A stretch of DNA of 64,000 nt, from positions 124,001-188,000 of the forward strand of contig NZ_LOQF01000001.1 in NCBI RefSeq assembly GCF_001517935.1. Direction: 5' to 3'. Shown in pieces: positions 10,001 to 64,000 of this stretch. The stretch comes from Sneathia sanguinegens. GTDB taxonomy: Bacteria; Fusobacteriota; Fusobacteriia; Fusobacteriales; Leptotrichiaceae. A program made the translations under genes and the position numbers. Each line of letters begins with the position of its first letter. Within the stretch, counting starts at the first letter, position 1. The notes under the pieces were generated by a model, which saw only the letters and a list, made by a program, of their open reading frames with translations, had not been told where the DNA came from and made no database searches.

Positions 10001-10035
10001 GGTGGTAAGTTTAAACTTGCTACCTTTATTTTTTT
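10001..10035 (+). terminator. Terminator after pdxT
   Basis: GGTGGTAAGT and ACTTGCTACC form a 10-bp stem with two G-T pairs and a TTAA loop, followed by a T-rich tract. It ends the long operon that starts before the window. Confidence 0.75.
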
Positions 10036-10077
10036 ATTAAAATGTGCTATCATGTTAATTAAAAGGAGATGGGAGAG

Positions 10078-10803
10078 TTGAAAAAAATCCTTATATTATT
10101 CTTATTACTCGTATCATTATTGACTTATACAAAAGAATTCAGAGTTATAAGCTATAATCTATATGGAGGAAGACTTACTGATCCGATTGAATTAGCAGAT
10201 AGTTTAAAAAAATATAGCCCAGATTTTTTGGCATTTCAAGAAGTTGATAAAGAAACTTTTAGAAGTAATTTCTTAGATTTTACCAAAGAAGTTGCAGATA
10301 GATTAGGATATAAGTATTACTATTTTAAAAAAGCTTTAGATTTTCAAGCTGGAGAGTTCGGGATATCTTTTATATCAAAATATCCTGTAGACGAAATCTA
10401 TACTAAAGAATTGATAAATTCAGAAACAGCTAAAGAAAAAAGACAGCTTATAGTAGCTAAATTTAATAAATCTATTTTTTCAAAAAATTTATGCATATTT
10501 AATACGCATTTAACCTATGATATAGAAGATAATGCAAAGCAAGTAGATGATTTATTAACTGTAGCTACATATATTAATGGGGATATGAAAATTATATGTG
10601 GAGATTTTAATTTATTACCTAGTACAAAAGAATATAAGAAAATAGTAGAAAAATTTAATGATACCTATAATAATAAAGATGAAAAAAGAATAGACTATAT
10701 TTTTACTAGCAAAGACCCTGATATTAAGGTGTTAGATGCTAGATTTTTAGACTTAAACTTATCTGATCATAAGCCGTACGAAGTCATACTTGATATAAAA
10801 TAG
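10078..10803 (+). CDS. Secreted endonuclease/exonuclease/phosphatase family protein
   Basis: Metal-dependent phosphodiesterase fold (DNase I/sphingomyelinase/inositol phosphatase superfamily). Motifs in order: VISYNLYGG, LAFQEVD with the metal-binding Glu, FNTHLTYD, GDFNLLP, RIDYIFTS and SDHKPYEV with the catalytic Asp-His. The N-terminus (KKILILFLLLVSLLTYT) is a signal peptide, so it acts outside the cytosol. I choose the TTG at 10078: the upstream ATG at 10069 directly abuts the AAGGAG site, whereas TTG lies 9 bases after it. The product is 241 residues, short for a sphingomyelinase. The substrate is unknown. It lies 12 bases before the oligopeptide lipoprotein gene and is probably co-transcribed with it. 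Confidence 0.83.
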   Translation: MKKILILFLLLVSLLTYTKEFRVISYNLYGGRLTDPIELADSLKKYSPDFLAFQEVDKETFRSNFLDFTKEVADRLGYKYYYFKKALDFQAGEFGISFISKYPVDEIYTKELINSETAKEKRQLIVAKFNKSIFSKNLCIFNTHLTYDIEDNAKQVDDLLTVATYINGDMKIICGDFNLLPSTKEYKKIVEKFNDTYNNKDEKRIDYIFTSKDPDIKVLDARFLDLNLSDHKPYEVILDIK

Positions 10804-10815
10804 AGGAGGAAATGT

Positions 10816-51439: not shown

Positions 51440-52795
51440 TTAATCCTCCTTAACCTTATCTAATTCGAAATCCCATTCTTTTTTTGTAGTTGTATATGGG
51501 ATATAGATAGATATTATAGCAAATATTGCTAATATAAATTGATACCAGAAATATGGTATTATATCAAATGGACTCAAAAGTCCTTTAGTTAAACTAGCAG
51601 CTATTAATACTTGTGCACCATAAGGAATTAAACCTTGAAATACACAAGAAAAAGTATCAAGTAGAGAAGCTGATCTTCTAGGGTCTACTTTGTATTCTTT
51701 AGAAATTTCTTTTGCAACAGGACCAGCTATAATTATAGCAACAGTATTATTAGCTACTGCAATATCTAATATTGAAATCAATACACAAATTCCAAGTTCT
51801 GCTGACTTTTTACCTTTTAAAAGTTTTTTTGCTTTTTGAATTATCCATTCTATTCCTCCAGCTTTTGTAACCAGATATGCAAGACCTCCAGTCAATAGAG
51901 ATAATAGGAATATTTCAAACATTCCATTGAAACCTTCATAAATTTTTTGTGTATATTTTAATAATGTAAATGACTTTGTGGCAAGTCCAATAGCACCTGA
52001 AAATAAGATACCTATTGTTAATGTTGTGAAGACATTAAGACCAAATAAAGCTAATACTAATACTAAAATATATGGAACAACTTTAATTATTGTAAATGAT
52101 AAATTTGTAGTATCTACGACTTTAGCTGGAGTTACACAAAATAACAAAATCAAAAAAGTAATAATAGCAGCTGGTAATGCTATTTTAAAATTCATTCTGA
52201 ATTTATCACGCATTTCAACATGTTGTGTTCTAGTTGCTGCGATAGTTGTATCTGAAATAACAGATAAATTATCTCCAAACATTGCACCACCAACTAAAGA
52301 TCCTATCATTAATGCTAGACTTATACCTGACTTTTCTGCTAAACCAACTGCAAGTGGACCAACAGTAACTATTGTTCCAACAGATGTACCAGTTGAAAGA
52401 GATATAAATGCTCCCATTAAGAAAATACCAGCTACTAAATATTTAGAAGGAATTATGCTCATACCTAAATTAACCGTTGATTCGATACTTCCACTAGCAG
52501 CGGCAACACTAGCAAAGGCTCCAGCTAGAATATATATTAAGCACATTATGATAATATTTTCATCACCACAACCTTTAACAAGATTATCAAATTTTTCATT
52601 CATGCTTCCTTTAAAAAGAATAAAAGCAGAGATTATTCCAATAATTACAAATATTGGAGAATTTACAGCATAAAAACCTAATTCATGCCCTGTATATGTT
52701 AAATAAAATCCAGTAAATAAGTACAGTCCGATGAATATTAAAAATGGAATTAATGCTTTAGCACTTGGTTTTGGCTTAGAATCCATGTTGTTCAC
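51440..52795 (-). CDS. NhaC-family transporter (candidate methionine/Na+ transporter)
   Basis: Membrane protein of 451 residues with 11-12 hydrophobic segments. The blocks GTSVGTIVTVGPLAVGLAEK, GAMFGDNLSVISDTTIAATRT and PYGAQVLIAASL are typical of the NhaC/ion-transporter superfamily. Some NhaC members are sodium/proton antiporters, while others (MetT-like) are proposed methionine transporters. The tight link to megL (4 bases) favours sulfur amino-acid transport here; that is inference. Its promoter contains a 19-base element also found before the YfcC-family operon. Confidence 0.85.
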   Translation of the reverse strand: MNNMDSKPKPSAKALIPFLIFIGLYLFTGFYLTYTGHELGFYAVNSPIFVIIGIISAFILFKGSMNEKFDNLVKGCGDENIIIMCLIYILAGAFASVAAASGSIESTVNLGMSIIPSKYLVAGIFLMGAFISLSTGTSVGTIVTVGPLAVGLAEKSGISLALMIGSLVGGAMFGDNLSVISDTTIAATRTQHVEMRDKFRMNFKIALPAAIITFLILLFCVTPAKVVDTTNLSFTIIKVVPYILVLVLALFGLNVFTTLTIGILFSGAIGLATKSFTLLKYTQKIYEGFNGMFEIFLLSLLTGGLAYLVTKAGGIEWIIQKAKKLLKGKKSAELGICVLISILDIAVANNTVAIIIAGPVAKEISKEYKVDPRRSASLLDTFSCVFQGLIPYGAQVLIAASLTKGLLSPFDIIPYFWYQFILAIFAIISIYIPYTTTKKEWDFELDKVKED

Positions 52796-52824
52796 CTTCC
52801 TCTTGGAATATTTAATTGTTATTT

Positions 52825-52843
52825 CAATATATTATAACTTGAT
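52825..52843 (-). promoter_or_regulatory. Promoter core/dyad shared with the YfcC operon (NhaC-megL copy)
   Basis: CAATATATTATAACTTGAT on the plus strand is identical to 55483-55501. Read on the minus strand it contains TATAAT (52831-52836) within an imperfect dyad CAA-N2-TAT-N-ATA-N2-TTG. It precedes the transporter start by about 35 bases. Confidence 0.7.
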
Positions 52844-52888
52844 AAATTTAATATAATAGTATTCTTTTTTATAATAACATAGTTTGTT

Positions 52889-54052
52889 TTAGTTATTTAA
52901 AAAATCTAAAGCGACTTTTGCATAAATTGCACTACCCATTTCTAGTGCATCTTCATCCATATTAAATTTTGAATGATGTTGAGGATACTTACAATCTTTT
53001 TCTTCATTTCTAATACCTACAAAGGCAAGAACTCCTTTAACTTTATTGCAATATGCTGAAAAATCTTCAGCAGTAGGTCTTTTTGCAAGATGGAACAAAC
53101 AATCCTTACCGAATAAATCAATTGCACTCTTTTGTGCTATTTTTGTATATTCACTATCATTAATTACTGGTGCAGGATAGAAGAAATATTCCATTTCATA
53201 TTTTGCATTATAAGCTAGAGTAATTCCTTTTAGTATTCTTTCAATTTTTTTAGGAACTTCTTTTCTTAATACTGGACTATAACATCTAACTGTTCCTTCA
53301 AGCATAGCATAGTCTGGAATTATATTAGCTCCAGTTCCTGAATTAAGTAAACCAACAGTTACTACAACTGAATCATTAGGATCTATTTCACGACTTACTA
53401 TAGTTTGTATACTTTGTGTAAAAGCTGCAGCAATCGGAGTTGGATCTATACATTGATAAGGCATAGAACCATGTCCACCTCGACCTAAGATTTTAATTTT
53501 GAAATTATCAGCACTAGCCATTCTAGGTCCTTCTTCAATAGAAACTTTTCCTACTGGTACATCTGCCCAAAGATGTATAGCAAAGGCACTATCAACACCA
53601 TCTAAGACACCTTCTTCTATCATCTTATCAGCACCTTGACCAACTTCTTCAGCAGGTTGAAATATACATCTAACTGTACCATGAATTGAATCTCTCATAT
53701 CATTTAATATTTTGATAGCACCTAATAGTTGTGCCATATGACCATCATGACCACAAGCGTGCATTTTACCTTGATTTTTAGATTTATATTCTATATCACG
53801 AGTTTCTTGAACTGGCAAACAATCCATATCAGCTCTTAAAAGTACACATTTTCCAGGTTTATTACCTTTTATATCAATTACTAAACCTGTACCAGCCATT
53901 TTTTTGTATTTCAAATTCATTTTATCTAATTCTCTTGTTAAAACCTTGTTAGCTTCAAATTCTTCAAAAGCTAAACCTGGGCAAGCATGTAATTCTCTTC
54001 TAATGTTAATTACATAGTCTTTGTATTTTTTACTAAGTTCTTTTACATCCAT
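52889..54052 (-). CDS. M20-family amidohydrolase (N-acyl amino acid/hippurate type)
   Basis: Zinc amidohydrolase of 387 residues: LRADMDCLPVQET, the metal-binding MHACGHDGHMAQLLGA, FQPAEEVGQGADKMIEEG with the catalytic Glu, and AIHLWADVPVG. It removes acyl groups from amino acids, or acts on related amides. The start at 54052 has AAAGGAG 10 bases upstream; a longer frame to 54085 includes that site and the end of the previous gene and is unlikely. It is the partner of a YfcC-family permease 19 bases upstream, suggesting import and deacylation of the same compound. Confidence 0.9.
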   Translation of the reverse strand: MDVKELSKKYKDYVINIRRELHACPGLAFEEFEANKVLTRELDKMNLKYKKMAGTGLVIDIKGNKPGKCVLLRADMDCLPVQETRDIEYKSKNQGKMHACGHDGHMAQLLGAIKILNDMRDSIHGTVRCIFQPAEEVGQGADKMIEEGVLDGVDSAFAIHLWADVPVGKVSIEEGPRMASADNFKIKILGRGGHGSMPYQCIDPTPIAAAFTQSIQTIVSREIDPNDSVVVTVGLLNSGTGANIIPDYAMLEGTVRCYSPVLRKEVPKKIERILKGITLAYNAKYEMEYFFYPAPVINDSEYTKIAQKSAIDLFGKDCLFHLAKRPTAEDFSAYCNKVKGVLAFVGIRNEEKDCKYPQHHSKFNMDEDALEMGSAIYAKVALDFLNN

Positions 54053-54071
54053 TTTATATACACTCCTTTTT

Positions 54072-55451
54072 TTATGCTGGACCATAAGATATTTTTACTG
54101 CGATTGTTAAGAATATTGCAGATGAAATTGCTAATAAAAGTATAAGAGGGAATACAAATTTATACCATTTTGATAAAGGAATTTTACCATATGATAAGAA
54201 TAACAAAAGTCCCCCATATGTGAACCAAACTATATTTGATAAACCATCACCAAATTGATAAGCTAATATCATAGTTTGACGAGTTAGACCTATCAATTCA
54301 GATAAAGGCATAAGTATAGGCATCAATGCCATAGCTTTACCAGAACCAGATGGTACAAGACCATTTAAGAACGATACGACTATAAATACGGCTATTGCTG
54401 TTGCTACTGAAGGTAAACCTTGTAACATTCTAGACATTCCATAAATTATTGGGTCAATAATTTTTCCTTGTTCTAATGCCCATTGTACACCTCTTGCAAC
54501 ACCAACTATCATCGCACCATTGAATGCACCTTTACAACCAACTAAAAAACTATCTGCTATATCAGAAGCACTCATTTTATTTATAAGACCTGCAATTATT
54601 CCACTTAATATAAATACAGCAGTCATATCAATGATGTTCCATTTTAATTTAAGCATTCCATATACTGAAATTATAAAAGTTAATCCTAAAATAATTAATG
54701 ATATTTTATGAATAGAAGTAAATGGTTCATTTTTTGAAATATTTACTTTCAAATCAGTTGTATCAATATCTTTCATATAACTCTTTTCAGGATTTTTTCT
54801 TATTCGTTGAGCATACCAAAGTATATATATCAATGTTATTGGTATATAAATGAAATATATTATAAGTCTCAAACCTAATCCTGAAAAAATAGGTAATTGT
54901 GATATTTGATCTGCAATTCCTACAGTGTAGATATTAGTAGGACCAACCATAAATCCGACCATAAGACCTAATACTAATACTGAAACTCCAACGATAGTAT
55001 CATATCCTAGTGCTAATAGAATAGGTATAACTAAAGGAGCAAATGGAATACAAACTTCTATCCATCCTAAAAATCCACCTAAAATAGCAAATACGATAAA
55101 TAATACAGCGATTACTAAAGGACCACCTTTTGTTCCTACTGAATTAACTAACTTATTAATTCCAGCATTTATTGTCCCAGATTTATTATATATTTCTATA
55201 GATCCACCAACTAAAAGTATTAAAACAACCATATTAGAAGCACCCATTATACCATAAGGGATTGCTTTAAAAATTGCTAATGGAGATAAAAAATTTTTTG
55301 GAATATTGTGATAACTATTTGCAACTACAATAGTTCTTCCGTTAATGATTTGTCTTTGAAATTCACCAGGAGTAACTACATACGATGCTAGAATACATAA
55401 AACTATAACGAAAAACAACAACACAAAAGCATTAAGTTTTATTTTTTTCAT
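54072..55451 (-). CDS. YfcC-family (DcuC/ArcD-like) membrane transporter
   Basis: Membrane protein of 459 residues with about 12 hydrophobic segments. LNAFVLLFFVIVLCILASYVVTPGEFQR and the later GLVPSGSGKAMALMPILMPLSE match the YfcC group of the anaerobic C4-dicarboxylate/ion transporter superfamily. Substrates in this group include dicarboxylates, amino acids and peptides-like acids. AAAGGAG precedes the start. Pairing with an M20 amidohydrolase suggests an acylated amino acid or dipeptide as cargo. It is divergently placed from the LysR gene. Confidence 0.87.
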   Translation of the reverse strand: MKKIKLNAFVLLFFVIVLCILASYVVTPGEFQRQIINGRTIVVANSYHNIPKNFLSPLAIFKAIPYGIMGASNMVVLILLVGGSIEIYNKSGTINAGINKLVNSVGTKGGPLVIAVLFIVFAILGGFLGWIEVCIPFAPLVIPILLALGYDTIVGVSVLVLGLMVGFMVGPTNIYTVGIADQISQLPIFSGLGLRLIIYFIYIPITLIYILWYAQRIRKNPEKSYMKDIDTTDLKVNISKNEPFTSIHKISLIILGLTFIISVYGMLKLKWNIIDMTAVFILSGIIAGLINKMSASDIADSFLVGCKGAFNGAMIVGVARGVQWALEQGKIIDPIIYGMSRMLQGLPSVATAIAVFIVVSFLNGLVPSGSGKAMALMPILMPLSELIGLTRQTMILAYQFGDGLSNIVWFTYGGLLLFLSYGKIPLSKWYKFVFPLILLLAISSAIFLTIAVKISYGPA

Positions 55452-55482
55452 ATATCTTCTCCTTTCGTAGAATATTATTTAG

Positions 55483-55501
55483 CAATATATTATAACTTGA
55501 T
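55483..55501 (-). promoter_or_regulatory. Promoter core/dyad shared with the NhaC-megL operon (YfcC copy)
   Basis: The same 19 bases as at 52825-52843, with TATAAT at 55489-55494 on the minus strand, about 30 bases before the YfcC-family gene. The flanking bases differ, so the match is not a wider duplication. The LysR gene next door is the obvious candidate binder. Confidence 0.7.
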
Positions 55502-55615
55502 TTTACTATGTGAAATTATTCTTTTTTTTTATATATAACAATAACAAAAAAATTTTTTTGATAATAAAAAAAACAAGTTACAATTATAATATAAGAATAT
55601 TTGGGGGATATTTTT

Positions 55616-56521
55616 ATGACTATTAAACAATTGAGGTATTTATTAGAAATAGAAAAGCAAGGTTCAATTAATAAGGCTTCGAAAAGTTTATTTGTAACTC
55701 AACCGAGTATAACGAAAGTTATAAAATCATTGGAAGATGAATTGGGAGTTAAGGTATTTTTTAGAAATGTAAAAAATAAACAAGTAGTGTTTACTTTGGA
55801 AGGAAAAGAATTATTGGAGTATGCTAGATCATTGACAGAACAATTTCAAATTATCGAAAATTCTTTAAAAAATATAAAAGTAAAATTTTGTATTTCATCG
55901 CAACATTACTCATTTGTTATAGAAGCTTTTGTTAAAGAAATTGCTAAAAATAAAGATGAAGGGTTTGAATATACTCTCATAGAGGGTAAAATACAAAATG
56001 TAGTTGAAGATGTTATAAGCATGAAAAGTTCAATAGGTTTAATAACCTTATATGACGATGTAAGTTGCTTAGCTAAAAAAAGTTTGGAAGATAAGGGTAT
56101 TTCATTTAATTCGATAAAAAAAGTTATACCACATATTTTCATTAGAAAAAAACATCCATTAGCTTCTAAAGAAGTTATTACTTTAAAAGATTTAGAAGAA
56201 TATCCTATTGTTCTATTTGATCAAGAAATTAATGCATTAAATTTCTGCAATTATACAAAAAATAATATGAATTGCAAGAAAGTAATAAAGGTAACAGATA
56301 GGGATACTATTTATACAATTATTAAAAATACAAATGCATATAATATAGGTACAGGAATAGTAAATAAGGAAATAGATGGAGATATTATTGTTAAACCATT
56401 GAAAGGGGAAATACCATCGATGGATATAGGATATTTGAAGCTTAAATCTCTTAAATTAAACAAAGAGATACAACATTTCATATCAGTAGTAACGAAATTA
56501 ATTAACAAATATACAGTTTAA
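55616..56521 (+). CDS. LysR-family transcriptional regulator
   Basis: N-terminal winged helix (TIKQLRYLLEIEKQGSINKASKSLFVTQPSITKVIKSLEDELG) and a C-terminal periplasmic-type ligand-binding domain, 301 residues. The start at 55616 is an ATG following a GGGGGAT site; an earlier TTG precedes that site. It is divergent from the YfcC/M20 operon across 164 bases. TATAAT at 55585-55590 and CAAGTTA at 55574-55580, a half-match to the shared dyad, lie in its own promoter. Confidence 0.92.
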   Translation: MTIKQLRYLLEIEKQGSINKASKSLFVTQPSITKVIKSLEDELGVKVFFRNVKNKQVVFTLEGKELLEYARSLTEQFQIIENSLKNIKVKFCISSQHYSFVIEAFVKEIAKNKDEGFEYTLIEGKIQNVVEDVISMKSSIGLITLYDDVSCLAKKSLEDKGISFNSIKKVIPHIFIRKKHPLASKEVITLKDLEEYPIVLFDQEINALNFCNYTKNNMNCKKVIKVTDRDTIYTIIKNTNAYNIGTGIVNKEIDGDIIVKPLKGEIPSMDIGYLKLKSLKLNKEIQHFISVVTKLINKYTV

Positions 56522-56561: not shown

Positions 56562-56563
56562 AT

Positions 56564-56623
56564 TTTCAATTTTTGAAAATTGTTTTCAAAAAAACATATA
56601 TTTATTGAAAATGAAGATATAAT
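56564..56623 (+). promoter_or_regulatory. MurNAc operon promoter with four TTTTCAA/TTGAAAA half-sites
   Basis: Half-sites occur at 56564-56570 (TTTTCAA), 56574-56580 (TTGAAAA), 56583-56589 (TTTTCAA) and 56605-56611 (TTGAAAA). The first pair forms a perfect ATTTTCAA-TTT-TTGAAAAT palindrome. The -10 TATAAT lies at 56618-56623, so the last half-site falls inside the promoter spacer. This is a likely operator for the RpiR/MurR protein of the operon; binding is inferred. Confidence 0.65.
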
Positions 56624-56644: not shown

Positions 56645-57556
56645 ATGGTAGATTTGAATAGCTTATCAACAGAAAAAAATAATAGAAATAGCAAGAATAT
56701 AGAGCTTATGTCAACTTTTGAAATATTAAAAAAAATAAATGAAGAAGATAAGAAAGTTGCCTTTTGTGTAGAAAAAGTTGTGGATAAGATAGGACTATTA
56801 ATTGACGGAATACTCTCAAAATATACTGATAAAACAAGAATAATATACATAGGATCAGGAACATCAGGAAGATTAGGTATTTTAGATGCTTCTGAATGTC
56901 CACCAACTTATGGTGTAGATTATGATAAATTTAAAGGTTTAATTTCGGGAGGAAATACTGCAATATTTAAAGCAATTGAAAATGCAGAAGATAATTATGA
57001 ATTAGGAGAGCAGGATTTAAAAGCTATTAATTTAACAAAAAATGATGTTGTTATTGGTTTGACAGCATCAGGAAGAACTCCTTATGTTATTGGAGCTATT
57101 AAATATGCCAATTCTATTGGGGCTTTAACAGGGAGTATAACATGTTCAGAAAATTCAGAGTTATCAAAAATTAGTGAATATCCTATTGAGGTTATAGTCG
57201 GTGCTGAAATAGTAACTGGTTCTACAAGAATGAAAGCAGGAACTGCTCAAAAAATGATACTTAATATGATTTCAAGTACAATTATGATAAAGCAAGGCAA
57301 GGTATATTCAGGATATATGGTAGATGTGAAAACAAGTAATGAAAAATTAATTGAAAGAGCCAAAAGAATAATTCAAAATACAACAGGTTGCGATTATGAA
57401 ACTGCAGATAAGTACCTAAAATTAGCTGATCTTGAAACTAAGTTAGCAATAGTAATGTATTTAACAAAAATGGATAAAAAAAGTGCAATAGAAGAATTAA
57501 AAAGATATGATGATAACATTGCGAGGGTAATTCATGAGTTTACTGATAAAAATTAG
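56645..57556 (+). CDS. murQ: N-acetylmuramic acid 6-phosphate etherase
   Basis: Cleaves the lactyl ether of MurNAc-6-P, giving GlcNAc-6-P and D-lactate. The SIS-domain protein of 303 residues shows IYIGSGTSGRLGILDASECPPTYG with the catalytic Glu, LISGGNTAIFKAIENAED, GLTASGRTPYVIGA and GAEIVTGSTRMKAGTAQKM. It is first in a six-gene operon for recovery of cell-wall MurNAc. Confidence 0.96.
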   Translation: MVDLNSLSTEKNNRNSKNIELMSTFEILKKINEEDKKVAFCVEKVVDKIGLLIDGILSKYTDKTRIIYIGSGTSGRLGILDASECPPTYGVDYDKFKGLISGGNTAIFKAIENAEDNYELGEQDLKAINLTKNDVVIGLTASGRTPYVIGAIKYANSIGALTGSITCSENSELSKISEYPIEVIVGAEIVTGSTRMKAGTAQKMILNMISSTIMIKQGKVYSGYMVDVKTSNEKLIERAKRIIQNTTGCDYETADKYLKLADLETKLAIVMYLTKMDKKSAIEELKRYDDNIARVIHEFTDKN

Positions 57557-58373
57557 AGAAAGTAAAAATTTTACTGAAAATGAAAATGTTGTAGCAAAAT
57601 ATATTTTTGAAAATTATAGGAAAATATATGAAATGACAGTCAAAAATATATCTGAAAATACATTTACAAGTATAGCTTGTGTAACAAGAATGTGTAAGAA
57701 ATTAGGGCTAAGTGGCTTTTATGAGTTTAAAATGAAATTGATAGAAGAAATATCATTGTTTGAAAAGGAAAAAGTTGTATTTAAAAGCACTGATATTGAT
57801 AAAAATAATGACACGAATAAAATAATAGAAAAATTAAATAATTTAAGCATTGAATCTTTAAAAGAAACTAAATTATTACAAAATGTAGAATTAATTGAAA
57901 AAGTTTCAAAATTAATAAAAGATAAGGGAGTGTTAGATTTTTATGGTATGGGAGCCTCATATATTGTCTGTATAGATGCACAGTACAAATTTATGAGAGC
58001 TGGTAAAGTAACTACAGCTTTTGAAGCGACAGATAGACAATATGTTCAAGCTTGTAATAGTGATGATAATCATTTAGCAATCTTAATTTCATATTCAGGT
58101 ATGACAAAAGAAATTATTAAAATAGCTGAAATTTTAAATAAAAAAGGAATTGAAACAGTATCAATAACAAAATATACTGAAAATACTGTAGCAAATTTAT
58201 GTAAGTATAACTTATATGTCACATCAAAAGAAAGTTTAAAAAGAAGTGCAGCGATATATTCAAGAATATCAATGTTAAATATGATAGATGTACTTTATTT
58301 AAAATTTTCAAATGATAATTATGAAGAAGTTAAAAAGAAAATTATAGAGAATAGTATAGAAAAGGAGAAATGA
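57534..58373 (+). CDS. murR: RpiR/MurR-family regulator of the MurNAc operon
   Basis: HTH_6 domain (MTVKNISENTFTSIACVTRMCKKLG) plus a SIS domain (LDFYGMGASYIVCIDAQYKF, LISYSGMTKEIIKIAEIL), 279 residues. It probably senses MurNAc-6-P, as in E. coli MurR. It overlaps the murQ 3' end by 23 bases. The TTGAAAA/TTTTCAA array upstream of murQ is the likely target. Confidence 0.9.
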   Translation: MSLLIKIRESKNFTENENVVAKYIFENYRKIYEMTVKNISENTFTSIACVTRMCKKLGLSGFYEFKMKLIEEISLFEKEKVVFKSTDIDKNNDTNKIIEKLNNLSIESLKETKLLQNVELIEKVSKLIKDKGVLDFYGMGASYIVCIDAQYKFMRAGKVTTAFEATDRQYVQACNSDDNHLAILISYSGMTKEIIKIAEILNKKGIETVSITKYTENTVANLCKYNLYVTSKESLKRSAAIYSRISMLNMIDVLYLKFSNDNYEEVKKKIIENSIEKEK

Positions 58374-58377
58374 TTTT

Positions 58378-59778
58378 ATGGACTACAAGAAAATCTCGGA
58401 AAAAGTATTAGAAATTTTGGGCGGTAAGCAAAATATCTTATCTAATGCTGTTTGTATGACAAGATTAAGAGTTGAATTGAAAGATTCAAGTATAGTTGAT
58501 GTCAAAGAATTGAAAAATGTTGATGGAGTTTTGGGAGTTAAAGAAGGAGAAAATTTACAAATTATTTTTGGACCAGGTAAAGTTAATCGTATAGGTGAAG
58601 AATTTTCAAAACTTACAAATATTTCTTTGGGTCAAGTCGAAGTTGAAGAATTAGCTAAGACTAATAAGCAAAAAAATAAAGAAAAACATAATGGTGTCGT
58701 ACAAAGATTTCTACAAAGAATAGCTAATATTTTTGTTCCATTATTACCTGGAATAATTTCAGCAGGTTTAATAATGGGTCTATGTAATGTAGTTAATGTA
58801 AGTACAAAAGGAGCATTTGCTACAAGTTGGTGGTTTTTAGCTATACAAAGTTTAGGTTATTGTATGTTTGCATATTTATCAATTTTTGTTGGTATGAATG
58901 CTTGTAGAGAATTTGGAGGTAGCTATATTTTAGGTGGAGTTTTAGGTGGAATATTCGTTGCTTCTAAAGGTTTACCTTTAATGAAAGAAGGAGTAATTTT
59001 ACCACTTACAGCCAAAGCTTATGCACCAGGTATGGGAGGACTAATAGCTTCATTAATAATGGGTATAATTGCAGCAAAATTAGAAAAAAATGTTCGTAAG
59101 ATTGTTCCTACAATATTAGATACTTTCTTTACACCGATTATAACATTAATAATTAGTGTGTTTATAGCTGTATTAATAATACAACCTTTAGGTACAGGAA
59201 TAACACATGCAATATTTGGTTTACTAGACTTTATTTATACTAAATTAGGTTTTGTAGGAGGTTATGTTTTATCTGCTGGTTTCTTACCTTTAGTTGCTGT
59301 TGGTTTACACCAAGCATTAACACCAATACATGTACTTCTTAATAATCCAGATGGACCAACACATGGTATAAATTATCTGTTGCCTATATTAATGATGGCA
59401 GGTGGTGGACAAGTCGGTGCAGGATTTGCTATTTATCTAAAAACAAAGAATAAAAAATTAAAGAATTTAACTCGTGATGCTTTACCAGTAGGAATATTAG
59501 GTATAGGAGAACCATTAATGTATGCTGTTACATTACCATTAGGAATGCCATTTATTACAGCTTGTTTAGGTTCTGGTTTTGGGGGCTTATTAGCTTCAAT
59601 ATTTCATTTAGGAACAATTAGTGTTGGTGTTTCAGGATTATTTGGACTATTAATCGTTGTTCCTGGAACATGGATATATTTCATAATCTCAATGCTTGGG
59701 GCATATATAGGAGGTTTTGTATTAACATATTTATTTGGTGTAAATGAAGAAAGAATTGAGGAAATATATGGTGAATAA
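58378..59778 (+). CDS. murP: MurNAc-type PTS permease EIIBC
   Basis: Imports and phosphorylates MurNAc, or MurNAc-containing disaccharide. The 466 residues are in EIIB-EIIC order: the phosphocysteine is Cys26 in NAVCMTRLRVELK, a linker spans about residues 85-105, and the membrane domain follows (FVPLLPGIISAGLIMGL, GLHQALTPIHVLL, GIGEPLMYAVTLPLGMP). No EIIA domain is present, as in E. coli MurP, which borrows the glucose EIIA. The neighbours murQ, murR and mupG make the substrate assignment strong. Confidence 0.92.
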   Translation: MDYKKISEKVLEILGGKQNILSNAVCMTRLRVELKDSSIVDVKELKNVDGVLGVKEGENLQIIFGPGKVNRIGEEFSKLTNISLGQVEVEELAKTNKQKNKEKHNGVVQRFLQRIANIFVPLLPGIISAGLIMGLCNVVNVSTKGAFATSWWFLAIQSLGYCMFAYLSIFVGMNACREFGGSYILGGVLGGIFVASKGLPLMKEGVILPLTAKAYAPGMGGLIASLIMGIIAAKLEKNVRKIVPTILDTFFTPIITLIISVFIAVLIIQPLGTGITHAIFGLLDFIYTKLGFVGGYVLSAGFLPLVAVGLHQALTPIHVLLNNPDGPTHGINYLLPILMMAGGGQVGAGFAIYLKTKNKKLKNLTRDALPVGILGIGEPLMYAVTLPLGMPFITACLGSGFGGLLASIFHLGTISVGVSGLFGLLIVVPGTWIYFIISMLGAYIGGFVLTYLFGVNEERIEEIYGE

Positions 59779-60769
59779 TATTGAATTTGGAATATCAATA
59801 TATTTATCTACAAATATTGAAATGAATTCAGAATATTTATTAAAAGCAAAAGAAGTTAATTCTTCTTTTGTTTTTACTACCATTAATATGCCAGAAGAAA
59901 ATGATGAATTAAAAAAAGATATAAGTAAAGTAGTGGAACTATGTAAAAAAAATAAAATGAAATTAATAGTTGATATTAATGCAAATAGCAAAAAGTATAT
60001 TAAAGATTATGAAAATGTTTATTATAGGATAGATGATGGACTTAGTAATGATGAGATTATAGCTTTAGCTAAAAATAATTATGTTGTATTAAATAGCACT
60101 ACTTTAGATGAAGAAGATTTGAAATATTTTAAATTAAAAGGTGTAGATTTTTCAAAATTGTATAGTCTTCATAATTACTATCCTAAGGTTTATACTGGAG
60201 TGTCTTTAAAATTTTTAAAAAAAAGAAATGAAATTTACAAAAAATATGGCTTAAAAACCATGGCATTTATACCTGGGGATTTAAAAAGAGGACCTATATT
60301 TAAAGGTTTACCTACTGTAGAAGAACATCGCTATATGGATATTTTACAAGCAAGTTTGGAATTAATTGCTAATGATACTGATGTTATTTTACTAGGAGAT
60401 TTAAATATTAAAGAAGAAAATTGGGAAAGATTAAAATATTTATTAAAAGGAATTGTACCTTTGAGAATAAATAAAAATATTTTGAAAAATAGGATTTTTG
60501 AGAATAGAAAAGATTATTCTAATTATGTAGTAAGAAATATTAAAAGGGATATAGTTTTAGATACTATTGTTGAGATTGATAAAAATATAGAAAAGGGAGA
60601 TATTTTAGTAACGGATGAAAAGGGTTTGCGTTACAAGGGAGATCTTGAAATAGCATTAAAAAATTTGAATAAATTAAATGATGGAAGAAGAATTGTTGCT
60701 TCAGTCATAGACAAAGATAAGGGTTTATTAGATTATTTGTCAATTATTAATAAATTTATATTTATATAA
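59768..60769 (+). CDS. mupG: DUF871/GH170 6-phospho-N-acetylmuramidase (MupG-like)
   Basis: Homologous to the MupG family, which splits MurNAc-6-P-GlcNAc taken up by the PTS into MurNAc-6-P and GlcNAc. The N-terminal barrel starts NNIEFGISIYLSTNIE and contains LHNYYPKVYTGVSLKFL, AFIPGDLKRGPIFKGLPTVEEHR and VILLGDLNI, typical of DUF871. The C-terminal cyclophilin-like domain is about residues 240-333. The start at 59768 follows GAGGAAAT and overlaps murP by 11 bases; an earlier ATG at 59744 has no better site. It suggests that murP imports a disaccharide and not only free MurNAc. Confidence 0.87.
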   Translation: MVNNIEFGISIYLSTNIEMNSEYLLKAKEVNSSFVFTTINMPEENDELKKDISKVVELCKKNKMKLIVDINANSKKYIKDYENVYYRIDDGLSNDEIIALAKNNYVVLNSTTLDEEDLKYFKLKGVDFSKLYSLHNYYPKVYTGVSLKFLKKRNEIYKKYGLKTMAFIPGDLKRGPIFKGLPTVEEHRYMDILQASLELIANDTDVILLGDLNIKEENWERLKYLLKGIVPLRINKNILKNRIFENRKDYSNYVVRNIKRDIVLDTIVEIDKNIEKGDILVTDEKGLRYKGDLEIALKNLNKLNDGRRIVASVIDKDKGLLDYLSIINKFIFI

Positions 60770-60782
60770 GGAGTTGTGTGGT

Positions 60783-61541
60783 ATGAAAAAAATCGCTTTA
60801 AGTTTTATTTTACTAAGTATGTGTGTTTTTGGATATAAAAGAGAGGATATGAAGGTATATAGTAAAAGTTTGAATAAAAATATAGCTGTAACAGTTGTGT
60901 TGCCAGATACATATTCTAAAGAAAATAAATATCCAAGCATTTATACTTTGCATGGTTATTCAGGAGATAATACTAATTTTGTTACAAAAACACCAATAGG
61001 TCAATTATCAGATAAGTATAATGTAGTATTTATAAGTCCAGATGGAGGCTATGATAGTTGGTATATAAAGTATAATACTTTTATTTCTAAAGAATTACCT
61101 AGTATAATTGAAAGTAAATATAGTATCTATTCTGAAAAAGAAAAAAGAGCAATAACAGGACTTAGTATGGGAGGCTTTGGTGCATTATACATTGGTATAA
61201 ATAATCAGGATGTATTTGGGAATATTGGTTCAATGAGTGGTGGAGTTAATGTTGAAGAATATAAATTTAATTGGAACATATTAAAAAATATTAACAAAAA
61301 TTTTGAAGAATATAATATAAAAGCTATTAGTCATAAATTGATAGGAACAAAGAGCAATATAATATTTGATTGTGGGTATAATGATTTCTTTATTAAACCA
61401 AATAGAGATTTGCATAATAAATTATTAGATCTAAATATTTCGCACACTTATAGTGAAAGAAAAGGTGAACATAATTGGAATTATTGGAAGGATTCTATAA
61501 TTTATCAAACAGTATTTTTTGTAAATAATTTTAATAAATAA
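60783..61541 (+). CDS. Secreted alpha/beta-hydrolase esterase (esterase D/acetylesterase type)
   Basis: Ser-hydrolase of 252 residues with a signal peptide (MKKIALSFILLSMCVFG). Nucleophile Ser128 lies in GLSMGGFGALY, a likely catalytic Asp in FDCGYNDFF and His in GEHNWNYW; ISPDGGYDSWY and LHGYSGDNT form the oxyanion region. The start at 60783 lies 10 bases after AAGGAG; an upstream TTG at 60774 is too close. Its location in the MurNAc operon suggests removal of acyl groups from wall sugars or muropeptides before import. That role is inferred from context only. Confidence 0.83.
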   Translation: MKKIALSFILLSMCVFGYKREDMKVYSKSLNKNIAVTVVLPDTYSKENKYPSIYTLHGYSGDNTNFVTKTPIGQLSDKYNVVFISPDGGYDSWYIKYNTFISKELPSIIESKYSIYSEKEKRAITGLSMGGFGALYIGINNQDVFGNIGSMSGGVNVEEYKFNWNILKNINKNFEEYNIKAISHKLIGTKSNIIFDCGYNDFFIKPNRDLHNKLLDLNISHTYSERKGEHNWNYWKDSIIYQTVFFVNNFNK

Positions 61542-61552
61542 GGGGTAAAAAA

Positions 61553-63178
61553 ATGAAAAAAAATTTTTTGTTGATGATATTTATGGCATTTATTTCATTT
61601 TCATCTCAAATAGATAAAACTTTTCCGGTAAGTGCTGAAGATTTTGATGATTCAATTTTAACTAATCAAATTTTTGAGTTTAAAGCTTTTAAAGATCAAG
61701 GATATATAGTTTTAAATTATGAAAATTTAAAAAAAGTTGATATATATGTAAATGCTCATTTAATTGATACAAGTTCACTTAAGGGTACAGGTCAAAAAAA
61801 GATTTATATAGGCAAGTATACAAATAATGATAAAAATATATTAAGTATCAGTAATTTAGATGGTAAAGTTAATATTAAAATACCATATCCTGTTGTTTTG
61901 GAAAAAGGAGATAAGGAATATAATAAAACTGAAATAAAATATATAGATAAATTTTTAAAAAGTGAAATAAAAGCAGGGTTTCCATCTATACAAATTGCAG
62001 TTATAAAAAATGGTAAGTTAGAATTTGCAAAAAGTTATGGAAGTAGTACAAATGAAACTATGTATGATATAGCTAGTAATACAAAAATGTATGCAACAAA
62101 TTATGCAATACAAAAATTAGTTTATGAAAAGAAATTAAATTTGGATACATATATAAAAGATATTTTTCCTGATTTTGTAGGAAAGAATAAAGAAAAAGTA
62201 CAAGTTTCAGATTTATTAAAGCATCAAGCAGGCTTTCCAGCAGATCCTCAATATCATAATGATTTATATGACAAAGATGATGGAATAAAAAATGGTAAAA
62301 ATGATCTTTATGCAATAGGAAAAGAAAATGTATTAAAGGCTATAATGAAAACTCCTCTTGAATATGAACCTAAAACAAAGACAAAATATTCAGATGTAGA
62401 TTATATGCTACTAGGTTTAATAGTTGAAAAAATAACAGAAAAAAATTTAGATGAATATGTAAATGAAGAATTTTATTCTAAGCTTAATTTGAAACATACA
62501 ATGTTTAATCCTTTGCAACATGGCATTTCAAAAAATAATATAGCTCCAACAGAATTACATGGTAATACAAGAGATGGTTTAATAGAGTTTAAAAATATAA
62601 GAAAAAATGTAATCTGGGGAGAAGTTCATGATGAAAAAGCGTATTATGCAATGAAGGGTGTTTCAGGGCATGCAGGTCTATTTTCTAATGCAATAGAATT
62701 AGCGAAATTAGCACAAATTATGATAAATCAAGGAGGATATGGAGAAAATAAGTTTTTTGATAAAACAACAGTTGATATTTTTACAGAACCAAATCATATA
62801 AATACAAGTTATGGCTTAGGGTGGAGAAGACAAGGAGATAATATATATAGTTGGGCTTTTTCTGGCATAGTAGGTAAGGATGCAATAGGTCATACAGGTT
62901 GGACAGGTACAGTAACAGTTATAGATCCTAATCAAAATTTGGTTGTTGTTTTATTAACTAATGCGAAACATTCAAAAGTTATAGATAATAAGAAAAATCC
63001 TAATAAATTTTTTGCGGATCAATTTTATACAAAAAAATATGGAGCAATTATTACTTTGTTAGTTGATGCTTTTACAACAAAAGATAATAAGGATACAAAA
63101 AGAAGAATAAAATCATATTTCATGGATTTAAGTAAACAAGAAACGCCTAATAAGTATATTAAGGATTTAATAAAATAA
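61553..63178 (+). CDS. Secreted class-C beta-lactamase-fold hydrolase (PBP4B/YfeW-like)
   Basis: Exported protein of 541 residues (signal peptide MKKNFLLMIFMAFISFSSQ). A beta-rich N-terminal part of about 130 residues precedes the catalytic domain. Active-site motifs are Ser175-x-x-Lys178 (SNTK), YSD in KYSDVDYMLLG for the YxN position, and HTG in GHTGWTGTV for KTG. In E. coli the homologous yfeW (PBP4B) also follows murQP, so the genomic context agrees. It is a probable D,D-peptidase or muropeptide amidase/esterase; its true substrate cannot be deduced. It ends the operon before a terminator. Confidence 0.87.
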   Translation: MKKNFLLMIFMAFISFSSQIDKTFPVSAEDFDDSILTNQIFEFKAFKDQGYIVLNYENLKKVDIYVNAHLIDTSSLKGTGQKKIYIGKYTNNDKNILSISNLDGKVNIKIPYPVVLEKGDKEYNKTEIKYIDKFLKSEIKAGFPSIQIAVIKNGKLEFAKSYGSSTNETMYDIASNTKMYATNYAIQKLVYEKKLNLDTYIKDIFPDFVGKNKEKVQVSDLLKHQAGFPADPQYHNDLYDKDDGIKNGKNDLYAIGKENVLKAIMKTPLEYEPKTKTKYSDVDYMLLGLIVEKITEKNLDEYVNEEFYSKLNLKHTMFNPLQHGISKNNIAPTELHGNTRDGLIEFKNIRKNVIWGEVHDEKAYYAMKGVSGHAGLFSNAIELAKLAQIMINQGGYGENKFFDKTTVDIFTEPNHINTSYGLGWRRQGDNIYSWAFSGIVGKDAIGHTGWTGTVTVIDPNQNLVVVLLTNAKHSKVIDNKKNPNKFFADQFYTKKYGAIITLLVDAFTTKDNKDTKRRIKSYFMDLSKQETPNKYIKDLIK

Positions 63179-63188
63179 GGAAATATGG

Positions 63189-63217
63189 GGGTTGCAGTTG
63201 ATGCAACTCTTTTTTTA
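63189..63217 (+). terminator. Terminator after the MurNAc operon
   Basis: GTTGCA/TGCAAC stem (extended by G-T and G-C) with a GTTGA loop, then TCTTTTTTT. Confidence 0.85.
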
Positions 63218-63278: not shown

Positions 63279-63305
63279 TTAGCACTAGAGGAAGTGTAGT
63301 GCTAA
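63279..63305 (+). promoter_or_regulatory. CIRCE operator
   Basis: TTAGCACTA-N9-TAGTGCTAA is a perfect 9-bp inverted repeat differing from the usual TTAGCACTC/GAGTGCTAA only at the innermost pair. It is the HrcA binding site at the start of the heat-shock transcript. Confidence 0.95.
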
Positions 63306-63317
63306 CAGAGGTGTGAC

Positions 63318-64000
63318 ATGAATGAAAGAGAAAAACAAATCCTATACACAATAATATATCACTATATTAAGACAGGTGAAAGTGTAGGATCAAGAACAAT
63401 AGAAAAAAAATATGACATTGGTGTTTCATCAGCGACAATAAGAAATGCTATGGCAGATCTTGAAGATAAGGGACTTATATACAAAGTTCATACATCTTCA
63501 GGTAGAGTTCCAACTGAAAGAGGATATAAGCTATATGTTGATAAGCTTATGGATGATTTGGAATATGATGAGGAACCAGATATAGAGTTTATGAAATTGA
63601 AAAGTTCACAAATAGGTGTTGTACTTGAAAATATCACTGACTTATTATCAAAGGTTTCAAAACATACTGCTGTATCGCTAGAACCGTCTATTGATAAGCA
63701 TAAGGTTAGAAGACTAGAACTTATTCACATAGATGGAAAGAGGGCCTTTGTTGTAGTGGTAACAGATTTGAATATAGTTAAGACTGCAAATTTGTGTTTG
63801 TATAATATTACTAATGCACAAGTCTTAAAAGATGTTGCAAAATATTTCAATAGGCTTGTTATGTCAGGAAATTATACATATTCTTTAAATGATGTAAAAC
63901 AATTTTTAGAAAAAATAGGTGAATTAGATTCAGGTTTATCAGATAAAAATGATTCTAAATTATATGTTTCAAATGAATCGAATATGTTGCTATATGCACA
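63318..64000 (+). CDS. hrcA: Heat-inducible transcription repressor HrcA, 3' end outside window
   Basis: Represses heat-shock operons by binding CIRCE with help from GroEL. The visible 227 residues begin MNEREKQILYTIIYHYIKTG and include ESVGSRTIEKKY and the winged helix GVSSATIRNAMADLEDKGLI followed by HTSSGRVPTERGYKLYV, all highly typical. The frame is open to the window edge. The start at 63318 follows GAGGTG closely, 12 bases after the CIRCE element that controls it. Usually grpE and dnaK follow. Confidence 0.96.
   Translation, partial: MNEREKQILYTIIYHYIKTGESVGSRTIEKKYDIGVSSATIRNAMADLEDKGLIYKVHTSSGRVPTERGYKLYVDKLMDDLEYDEEPDIEFMKLKSSQIGVVLENITDLLSKVSKHTAVSLEPSIDKHKVRRLELIHIDGKRAFVVVVTDLNIVKTANLCLYNITNAQVLKDVAKYFNRLVMSGNYTYSLNDVKQFLEKIGELDSGLSDKNDSKLYVSNESNMLLYA

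Follow-up and report, generated by a model that had tools for sequence, protein, structure and literature searches.

A 64,000-nucleotide stretch of Sneathia sanguinegens DNA (hereafter the window; positions 124,001–188,000 of contig 1, NZ_LOQF01000001.1 or G000:C1, in a draft genome of 1.29 Mb that is 97.55% complete) carries six plus-strand genes, murQ-murR-murP-mupG-esterase-PBP4B (56645–63178), identified with Pfam and NCBIfam models. We read them, with confidence and doubt in equal measure, as an operon for the uptake and breakdown of N-acetylmuramic acid (MurNAc) or of its disaccharide with N-acetylglucosamine (MurNAc-GlcNAc), in which an exported-looking esterase would free the C6 hydroxyl of the sugar for MurP. 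The gene set, the family memberships, the export-like N-termini, the retained catalytic residues and the conserved linkage were all observed directly, and the set is not a product of chance, because it recurs in relatives. The core pathway for MurNAc is known, whereas the link between an esterase and murP looks new: the papers listed in searches of the open-licence PubMed Central (PMC) literature included neither a report of such a link for this operon nor an account of how recycling or scavenging bacteria handle acetylated fragments.

The six reading frames are all open and are separated, in gene order, by −23, 4, −11, 13 and 11 bases. The product of murQ (56645–57556) scores 366.7 bits with the model for MurNAc-6-phosphate etherase (TIGR00274, cut-off 302), and the gene is overlapped by 23 bases by that of a murR-like RpiR-family regulator (57534–58373) with helix-turn-helix (HTH; PF01418) and SIS (PF01380) domains. 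These are followed by genes for a murP-like enzyme IIBC of the phosphotransferase system (PTS; 58378–59778; EIIB PF00367 and EIIC PF02378), a mupG-like member of the 6-phospho-N-acetylmuramidase family (59768–60769; 11-base overlap with murP), an esterase of the carbohydrate esterase family 1 (CE1) type (60783–61541; PF00756, 110.7 bits against a cut-off of 22) and an S12 protein of the PBP4B (YfeW) family (61553–63178; NF002968, 466.9 bits against 385). The murP and murR products pass the Pfam family cut-offs but score below the MurNAc-specific equivalog cut-offs (NF007152, 282.4 versus 516, and NF012026, 97.1 versus 408, respectively), and their MurNAc specificity rests on gene context. On the basis of ribosome-binding sites, agreement with relatives and the extent of overlap, position 59768 was preferred as the mupG start over the first ATG of the open reading frame at 59744, and the ATG at 60783, behind GGAG, as the esterase start over the TTG at 60774. 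Among the six proteins, the esterase and PBP4B alone have a strongly hydrophobic, signal-like N-terminus, which can also be recognized by eye in the aligned relatives of the esterase; no GH3 or NamZ-type match was found among the six products in the Pfam scan. Behind PBP4B lies an intrinsic-terminator-like stem-loop with a T run (63187–63211, plus strand), one of four sites of this type detected over 7 kb (shuffled sequences average 0.8), the other three being intragenic; the promoter scan was uninformative (66 sites versus a mean of 53.6). The initial annotation, made by a model from the letters of the window, had described six tightly spaced genes ended by a single terminator, and the models, the gaps and the stem-loop bear this out; such an arrangement on one strand suggests that the genes are co-transcribed.

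The recurrence of the set was established by searching 33 genomes of Leptotrichiaceae and, for the phylum, 98 genomes. At an expectation value (E) of 1e-3, 26 of the family genomes match MupG_N, 16 the esterase, 10 PBP4B and 29 murQ, the last three counts including weak matches to other proteins. At E ≤1e-30 the esterase is present in 15 of the 98 phylum genomes, all of them Leptotrichiaceae, and in 12 of those 15 (12 of the 33 family genomes: G000, G001, G003, G018, G020–G023 and G029–G032) it lies in the murQ/murP cluster, a placement that extends across seven genera of the family, the window's genus included. The linkage check also took in the Sebaldella-type genomes G024 and G027, though not G025, and the copies examined in these two lie outside such a cluster. 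In 10 of the 11 relatives the esterase gene directly follows murP, one DUF1232 gene intervening in G003. PBP4B matches at E <1e-50 occur in six of the 33 genomes and stand beside the esterase in all six (that of G023 is cut by the contig end), whereas G030–G032 lack PBP4B. The possibility that the esterase is an oddity of the window was accordingly rejected. The initial annotation had named as decisive whether the esterase and PBP4B genes are absent from this position in relatives; for many relatives they are not. Its view of the operon as a merger of the Escherichia coli and Staphylococcus arrangements had to be abandoned because several genera of the family carry the set; it also overlooked the murQ-murR-murP precedent in Bacillus subtilis, as given in the available part of PMC5061867. 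The usual full order in relatives is murQ-murR-murP-esterase-PBP4B-mupG (G029, G021 and G022; in G018 the cluster holds these genes together with additional ones), so that the order murP-mupG-esterase-PBP4B in the window is derived or at least unusual.

The esterase belongs to PF00756, its only Pfam family at E ≤0.001, and carries Ser128, Asp201 and His230, which are invariant in 46 sequences and, judged by position, would form the catalytic triad; both features agree with the CE1 type. A genome-contig search with this protein confirmed at least 415 relatives, of which 80 loci were kept, each spanning up to 10 kb on either side of the esterase, with some stretches below 20 kb. A structure model built from the window sequence and 45 of the 80 loci (predicted local distance difference test score, pLDDT, 94.1) superimposes on 4rgy with a Z score of 32.0 and a root-mean-square deviation of 1.7 over 223 residues, and on Streptococcus pneumoniae EstA (2uz0) with a Z score of 29.5. 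In a tree of 42 rows (10 linked and 3 unlinked family members plus 29 of the 80 loci; G022 and G031, whose genes are broken, were excluded), the 10 mur-linked esterases fall within one set of 13 rows with a support of 99. The other three members are from Pasteurellaceae (Pasteurella canis, P. oralis and Bisgaard Taxon 45) and are joined with G018, G021 and G023 by a branch with a support of 95, although the alternative in which the linked esterases are held together without Pasteurellaceae was not rejected by the approximately unbiased (AU) test (p-AU 0.079). The three Pasteurellaceae genes (L119, L122 and L123, approximately 10001–10810) are stand-alone esterases and point to a possible gene transfer.

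Many bacteria acetylate MurNAc at C6 to resist lysozyme. We propose that the six genes act as one MurR-controlled operon for the use of MurNAc or MurNAc-GlcNAc, in which the esterase, outside the inner membrane, would remove O-acyl groups, most likely the 6-O-acetyl group of MurNAc, and thereby free the C6 hydroxyl that MurP would phosphorylate during import. PBP4B would trim or release wall peptides, and release of the sugar from the peptide would fall to PBP4B itself or to an amidase whose gene lies elsewhere; inside the cell, the MupG-like enzyme would split MurNAc-6-phosphate-GlcNAc (MurNAc-6P-GlcNAc), and MurQ would remove D-lactate to give GlcNAc-6-phosphate. The C6 hydroxyl must be free because the MurP/MupG route goes via a 6-phosphate: in S. 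aureus, according to the available part of PMC6262408, MurP phosphorylates MurNAc-GlcNAc on import and MupG cleaves MurNAc-6P-GlcNAc. Since O-acetylation of peptidoglycan falls on this same hydroxyl (parts of PMC6174289 and PMC6262408), an exported deacylase beside murP is a chemically simple reading, acetylated fragments being otherwise closed to phosphorylation. MurP takes peptide-free sugar, so that an amidase would still be needed besides PBP4B; one Amidase_3 gene is present elsewhere in the window genome, at G000:C7. The initial annotation's two secreted hydrolases in a MurNAc operon are thus upheld as far as the export-like N-termini go, whereas the peptide trimming that it assigned to PBP4B would be insufficient for MurP.

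As to the origin of the acylated material, no match to MBOAT or Acyl_transf_3, the two families of membrane proteins on which O-acetylation of the PatA and OatA types depends (PMC6174289, in part), was found in the window genome, which favours foreign peptidoglycan as the O-acetylated source. That the operon instead recycles the cell's own wall is a real possibility, if short of an even one. MurA is present, which sets the cell apart from MurNAc auxotrophs that lack MurA and makes it probable that it builds its own wall; own-wall MurNAc recycling is documented in S. aureus and B. subtilis (parts of PMC5061867 and PMC6262408). On the other hand, since neither MBOAT nor Acyl_transf_3 proteins were found, an esterase acting as a deacetylase would be unlikely to find its O-acetyl target on the cell's own wall. 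The scavenging route of the initial annotation is plausible, but own-wall recycling may apply instead, and a second genome of the genus, G028, lacks murQ, mupG and the esterase. More specifically, we tentatively suggest that the esterase is a CE1-type MurNAc 6-O-deacylase that unlocks PTS uptake and is aimed at foreign O-acetylated peptidoglycan. If this is true, acetylation at C6 would guard the wall fragments of a neighbour against both lysozyme and import of the MurP type, a protection that some Leptotrichiaceae would counter with a murP-linked exported esterase. The occurrence of such an esterase across seven genera offers a concrete candidate for the handling of acetylated fragments; should it prove inactive on O-acetyl-MurNAc, the murP linkage of this esterase group would need another explanation.

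Several observations weigh against the deacylase reading of the operon. The known peptidoglycan O-acetylesterases are SGNH/CE3 enzymes, as described in part in PMC6174289, whereas the window esterase is of the CE1/PF00756 type and falls outside the SGNH/CE3 family to which Ape belongs. Of the 80 retained esterase loci, 76 have no mur or PBP4B-like gene in the stretch examined, among them Pasteurellaceae esterases that are 55%–58% identical; the remaining four are three Leptotrichiaceae and L188 (Neomarinimicrobiota). No mur gene was found among the plasmid neighbours of esterase homologs, one plasmid record being without annotation. With so many relatives lacking mur neighbours, the esterase need not be wall-specific, and it may be a general acyl esterase that is co-expressed with an ordinary MurNAc recycling core and acts on other esters (feruloyl, acyl-glycan or lipid). 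We regard this as somewhat unlikely. It would agree with the nearest solved structures, which among 1000 Foldseek chains are generic esterases, feruloyl esterases and S-formylglutathione hydrolases, and with the homologs in Pasteurellaceae, Vibrio, Klebsiella and Bacteroidota, which have no mur genes in the stretches examined and one of which, in Parabacteroides, is accompanied by GH92 and GH130 enzymes; it is at odds with the placement in the murQ/murP cluster across seven genera and with the gathering of the mur-linked copies in one supported group. At L188 (8741–10808), the esterase homolog (30% identity) adjoins an S12-like protein that is 33% identical to the one in the window, and no murQ or murP was found in the stretch examined around it.

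The distribution and integrity of the genes also count against the proposed reading. In the same-genus genome G028, murQ, MupG and the esterase all went unmatched and PBP4B had a weaker match (40% over 311 residues), and nine of nine genomes in the group labelled g6 with a strong murQ match gave no esterase match. The esterase gene is broken in G022 (split frame, L090 8871–9667) and in G031 (stop codon, L085 9535–10320), the adjoining mur genes looking open; these breaks may be real or faults of assembly. The window esterase lacks an 8-residue loop that all 12 aligned family relatives have and that holds an Asp-Ser pair kept in at least 90% of the 46 sequences, and the window PBP4B lacks a loop of approximately 16 residues before SxxK that is present in five other aligned rows (15 residues in E. 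coli); the absent loops could mean altered activity. Both losses, together with G028, suggested decay, but the view of the operon as a decaying relic was not supported: none of the six frames is interrupted, and, measured to an outside row, the distance ratios of the esterase, mupG and PBP4B (1.19, 1.18 and 1.01, the last from another row set) are within the range of the core genes murQ, murR and murP (0.83, 1.10 and 1.34), the esterase and PBP4B being not unusually fast-evolving compared with murR and murP. Finally, absences from the window genome are provisional given its draft state, and every substrate, the sequence in which the steps occur, joint transcription of the genes and regulation through the repeat array discussed below are matters that we infer.

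The same caution extends to MupG. The window protein exceeds the cut-offs of both family domains (PF19200, 180.6 versus 24; PF05913, 50.7 versus 24.4), and a tree of 15 of the 36 MupG_N family matches resolved three classes, each with a support of 99–100. Clade A (99) comprises eight rows, the window included, and lies in the esterase cluster with murQ and murP in all eight genomes. Clade B comprises five rows beside PTS-like genes, as read from the sequence; in the L097 region a GH1 protein was confirmed by Pfam, and in G001, G018 and G020 the clade-B gene shares its region with murP and the esterase. Sebaldella-type genomes carry clade C. Because the window MupG belongs to a divergent clade, only 23%–29% identical to clade-B proteins of the same family, MurNAc-6P-GlcNAc is its presumed substrate, and clade-A proteins might have another specificity, for instance for a different 6-phospho-glycoside, so that the disaccharide step would differ. 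We consider this decidedly unlikely. One clade-B protein that was tried is 1x7f-like (366.6 bits), whereas two clade-A proteins gave best scores of 121.5 and 126.1 bits with 2p0o; as for orthology with the characterised S. aureus MupG, the tree, made from proteins of the family Leptotrichiaceae, places clade A apart from clade B with its likeness to 1x7f. Remote family members are indeed expected to differ in the available part of PMC6262408, where the catalytic residues of MupG are given as not yet known. On the other side stand the constant placement of clade A in the murQ-murP-esterase cluster and the conservation of five acidic residues (Asp69, Asp89, Glu185, Asp205 and Asp249) in all 15 rows, which makes a common catalytic centre across the three classes likely. 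For the initial annotation, which had MupG and MurQ finish the breakdown inside the cell, this means that the substrate of MupG is presumptive.

Other MupG relatives were also recorded. In G001 a larger cluster (L093, 4855–14860) contains murQ, murR, AnmK (anhydro-MurNAc kinase, PF03702), PTS-like parts, a GH1-like gene recognized by eye, clade-B mupG, murP and the esterase. A genome-contig search with the single window MupG protein gave no match. Plasmid proteins of Borreliella/Borrelia (e.g. NC_001903.1, 4775–5845) are relatives of the MupG family at approximately 28% identity, annotated as alpha3-beta1 integrin-binding or DUF871, and two of the records have a feature labelled as a PTS IIB component that the match touches as well; their surface-protein label may be worth rechecking.

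The PBP4B-like protein is 46% identical to E. coli YfeW and keeps the S12 active-site motifs SxxK, YxD and HTG as S175-N-T-K178, Y279-S-D281 and H447-T-G449. Its domain plan differs from that of YfeW by an extra N-terminal domain of approximately 90 residues (61610–61897, plus strand), which is conserved in four aligned family relatives, and it lacks a C-terminal stretch of approximately 60 residues that is present in four relatives and absent from E. coli. For the N-terminal domain, Pfam at relaxed E gave nothing credible, a PDB sequence profile a chance match only and Foldseek no match at E ≤0.001; a model of two sequences is all-beta (block pLDDT 71–90 in the core), with its closest resemblance to sugar-binding domains of the GH2 and CBM35 types (best E 0.027), a likeness that is a hint only. 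A PBP4B gene on a Priestia filamentosa plasmid has a MurR/RpiR regulator approximately 7 kb away, with no murQ or murP in the incomplete PLSDB gene table.

Since MurP needs peptide-free sugar, the PBP4B-like protein might itself be an exported N-acetylmuramoyl-L-alanine amidase that frees the sugar, like B. subtilis AmiE, which we take to be an S12/beta-lactamase-type protein. The position of the gene in a region similar to that of amiE in the B. subtilis operon (PMC5061867, in part) is in keeping with such a role, which we nevertheless judge unlikely. The protein passes the PBP4B model NF002968, which exceeds its cut-off in one of 14 control genomes, B. subtilis giving some match, and it resembles YfeW. 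The latter is reportedly, going by the title of a study by Vega and Ayala in 2006, a D,D-carboxypeptidase.

Upstream of murQ, by 54 bases, lies an array of TTTTCAA/TTGAAAA inverted repeats (56563–56590, plus strand), TTTTCAA-N3-TTGAAAAT-N2-TTTTCAAA, which is the best candidate for a MurR operator because the operon encodes an RpiR-type regulator; control by MurR is a lead to follow. The initial annotation makes no mention of the array. The array pattern, derived from the window site itself, has one match in 64 kb at ≤3 mismatches, with 0.01 expected from shuffles. A perfect pair of this kind, a criterion chosen after the window site was seen, occurs in seven of the 14 regions examined upstream of murQ and is missing from the other seven; the seven are those of the window, of five PBP4B-bearing relatives and, with wider spacing, of G001, so that all six PBP4B-bearing genomes, the window included, have it. 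Single-base shuffles of each upstream region gave a perfect pair 0–3 times per 200. Among the papers listed in a literature search on MurR binding sites, none was directly relevant.

Behind the terminator, an inverted repeat, TTAGCACTA-N9-TAGTGCTAA (63280–63330), is followed by an HrcA-looking open reading frame; the repeat resembles a CIRCE (controlling inverted repeat of chaperone expression) element. Upstream, 51440–56521 contains a LysR regulator and, on the opposite strand, a DcuC/YfcC-type carrier, an M20 amidohydrolase and an NhaC-type antiporter, probably a separate locus for peptide or amino-acid uptake.

Among known systems, the proposed reaction, removal of the 6-O-acetyl group from MurNAc, is that of Ape (PMC6174289, in part). 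The S. aureus operon mupG-murQ-murP-murR likewise brings MupG, MurQ, MurP and MurR together and follows the disaccharide route, but the gene order is different, no exported hydrolases form part of it as described in the available text (PMC6262408), and the window MupG is of a divergent clade. In E. coli, where murQ-murP-yfeW is accompanied by a divergent murR, PBP4B (YfeW) stands behind the MurNAc genes as in the window (PMC5061867, in part), but there mupG and the esterase are missing and YfeW has no N-terminal beta domain. The B. subtilis cluster murQ-murR-murP-amiE-nagZ-ybbC, so far as the same source describes it, shares the order murQ-murR-murP followed by hydrolases that work outside the cell; nagZ and ybbC are not among the six genes of the window, which instead include the mupG-like gene, the CE1 esterase and PBP4B, the last of these in a region similar to that of amiE.

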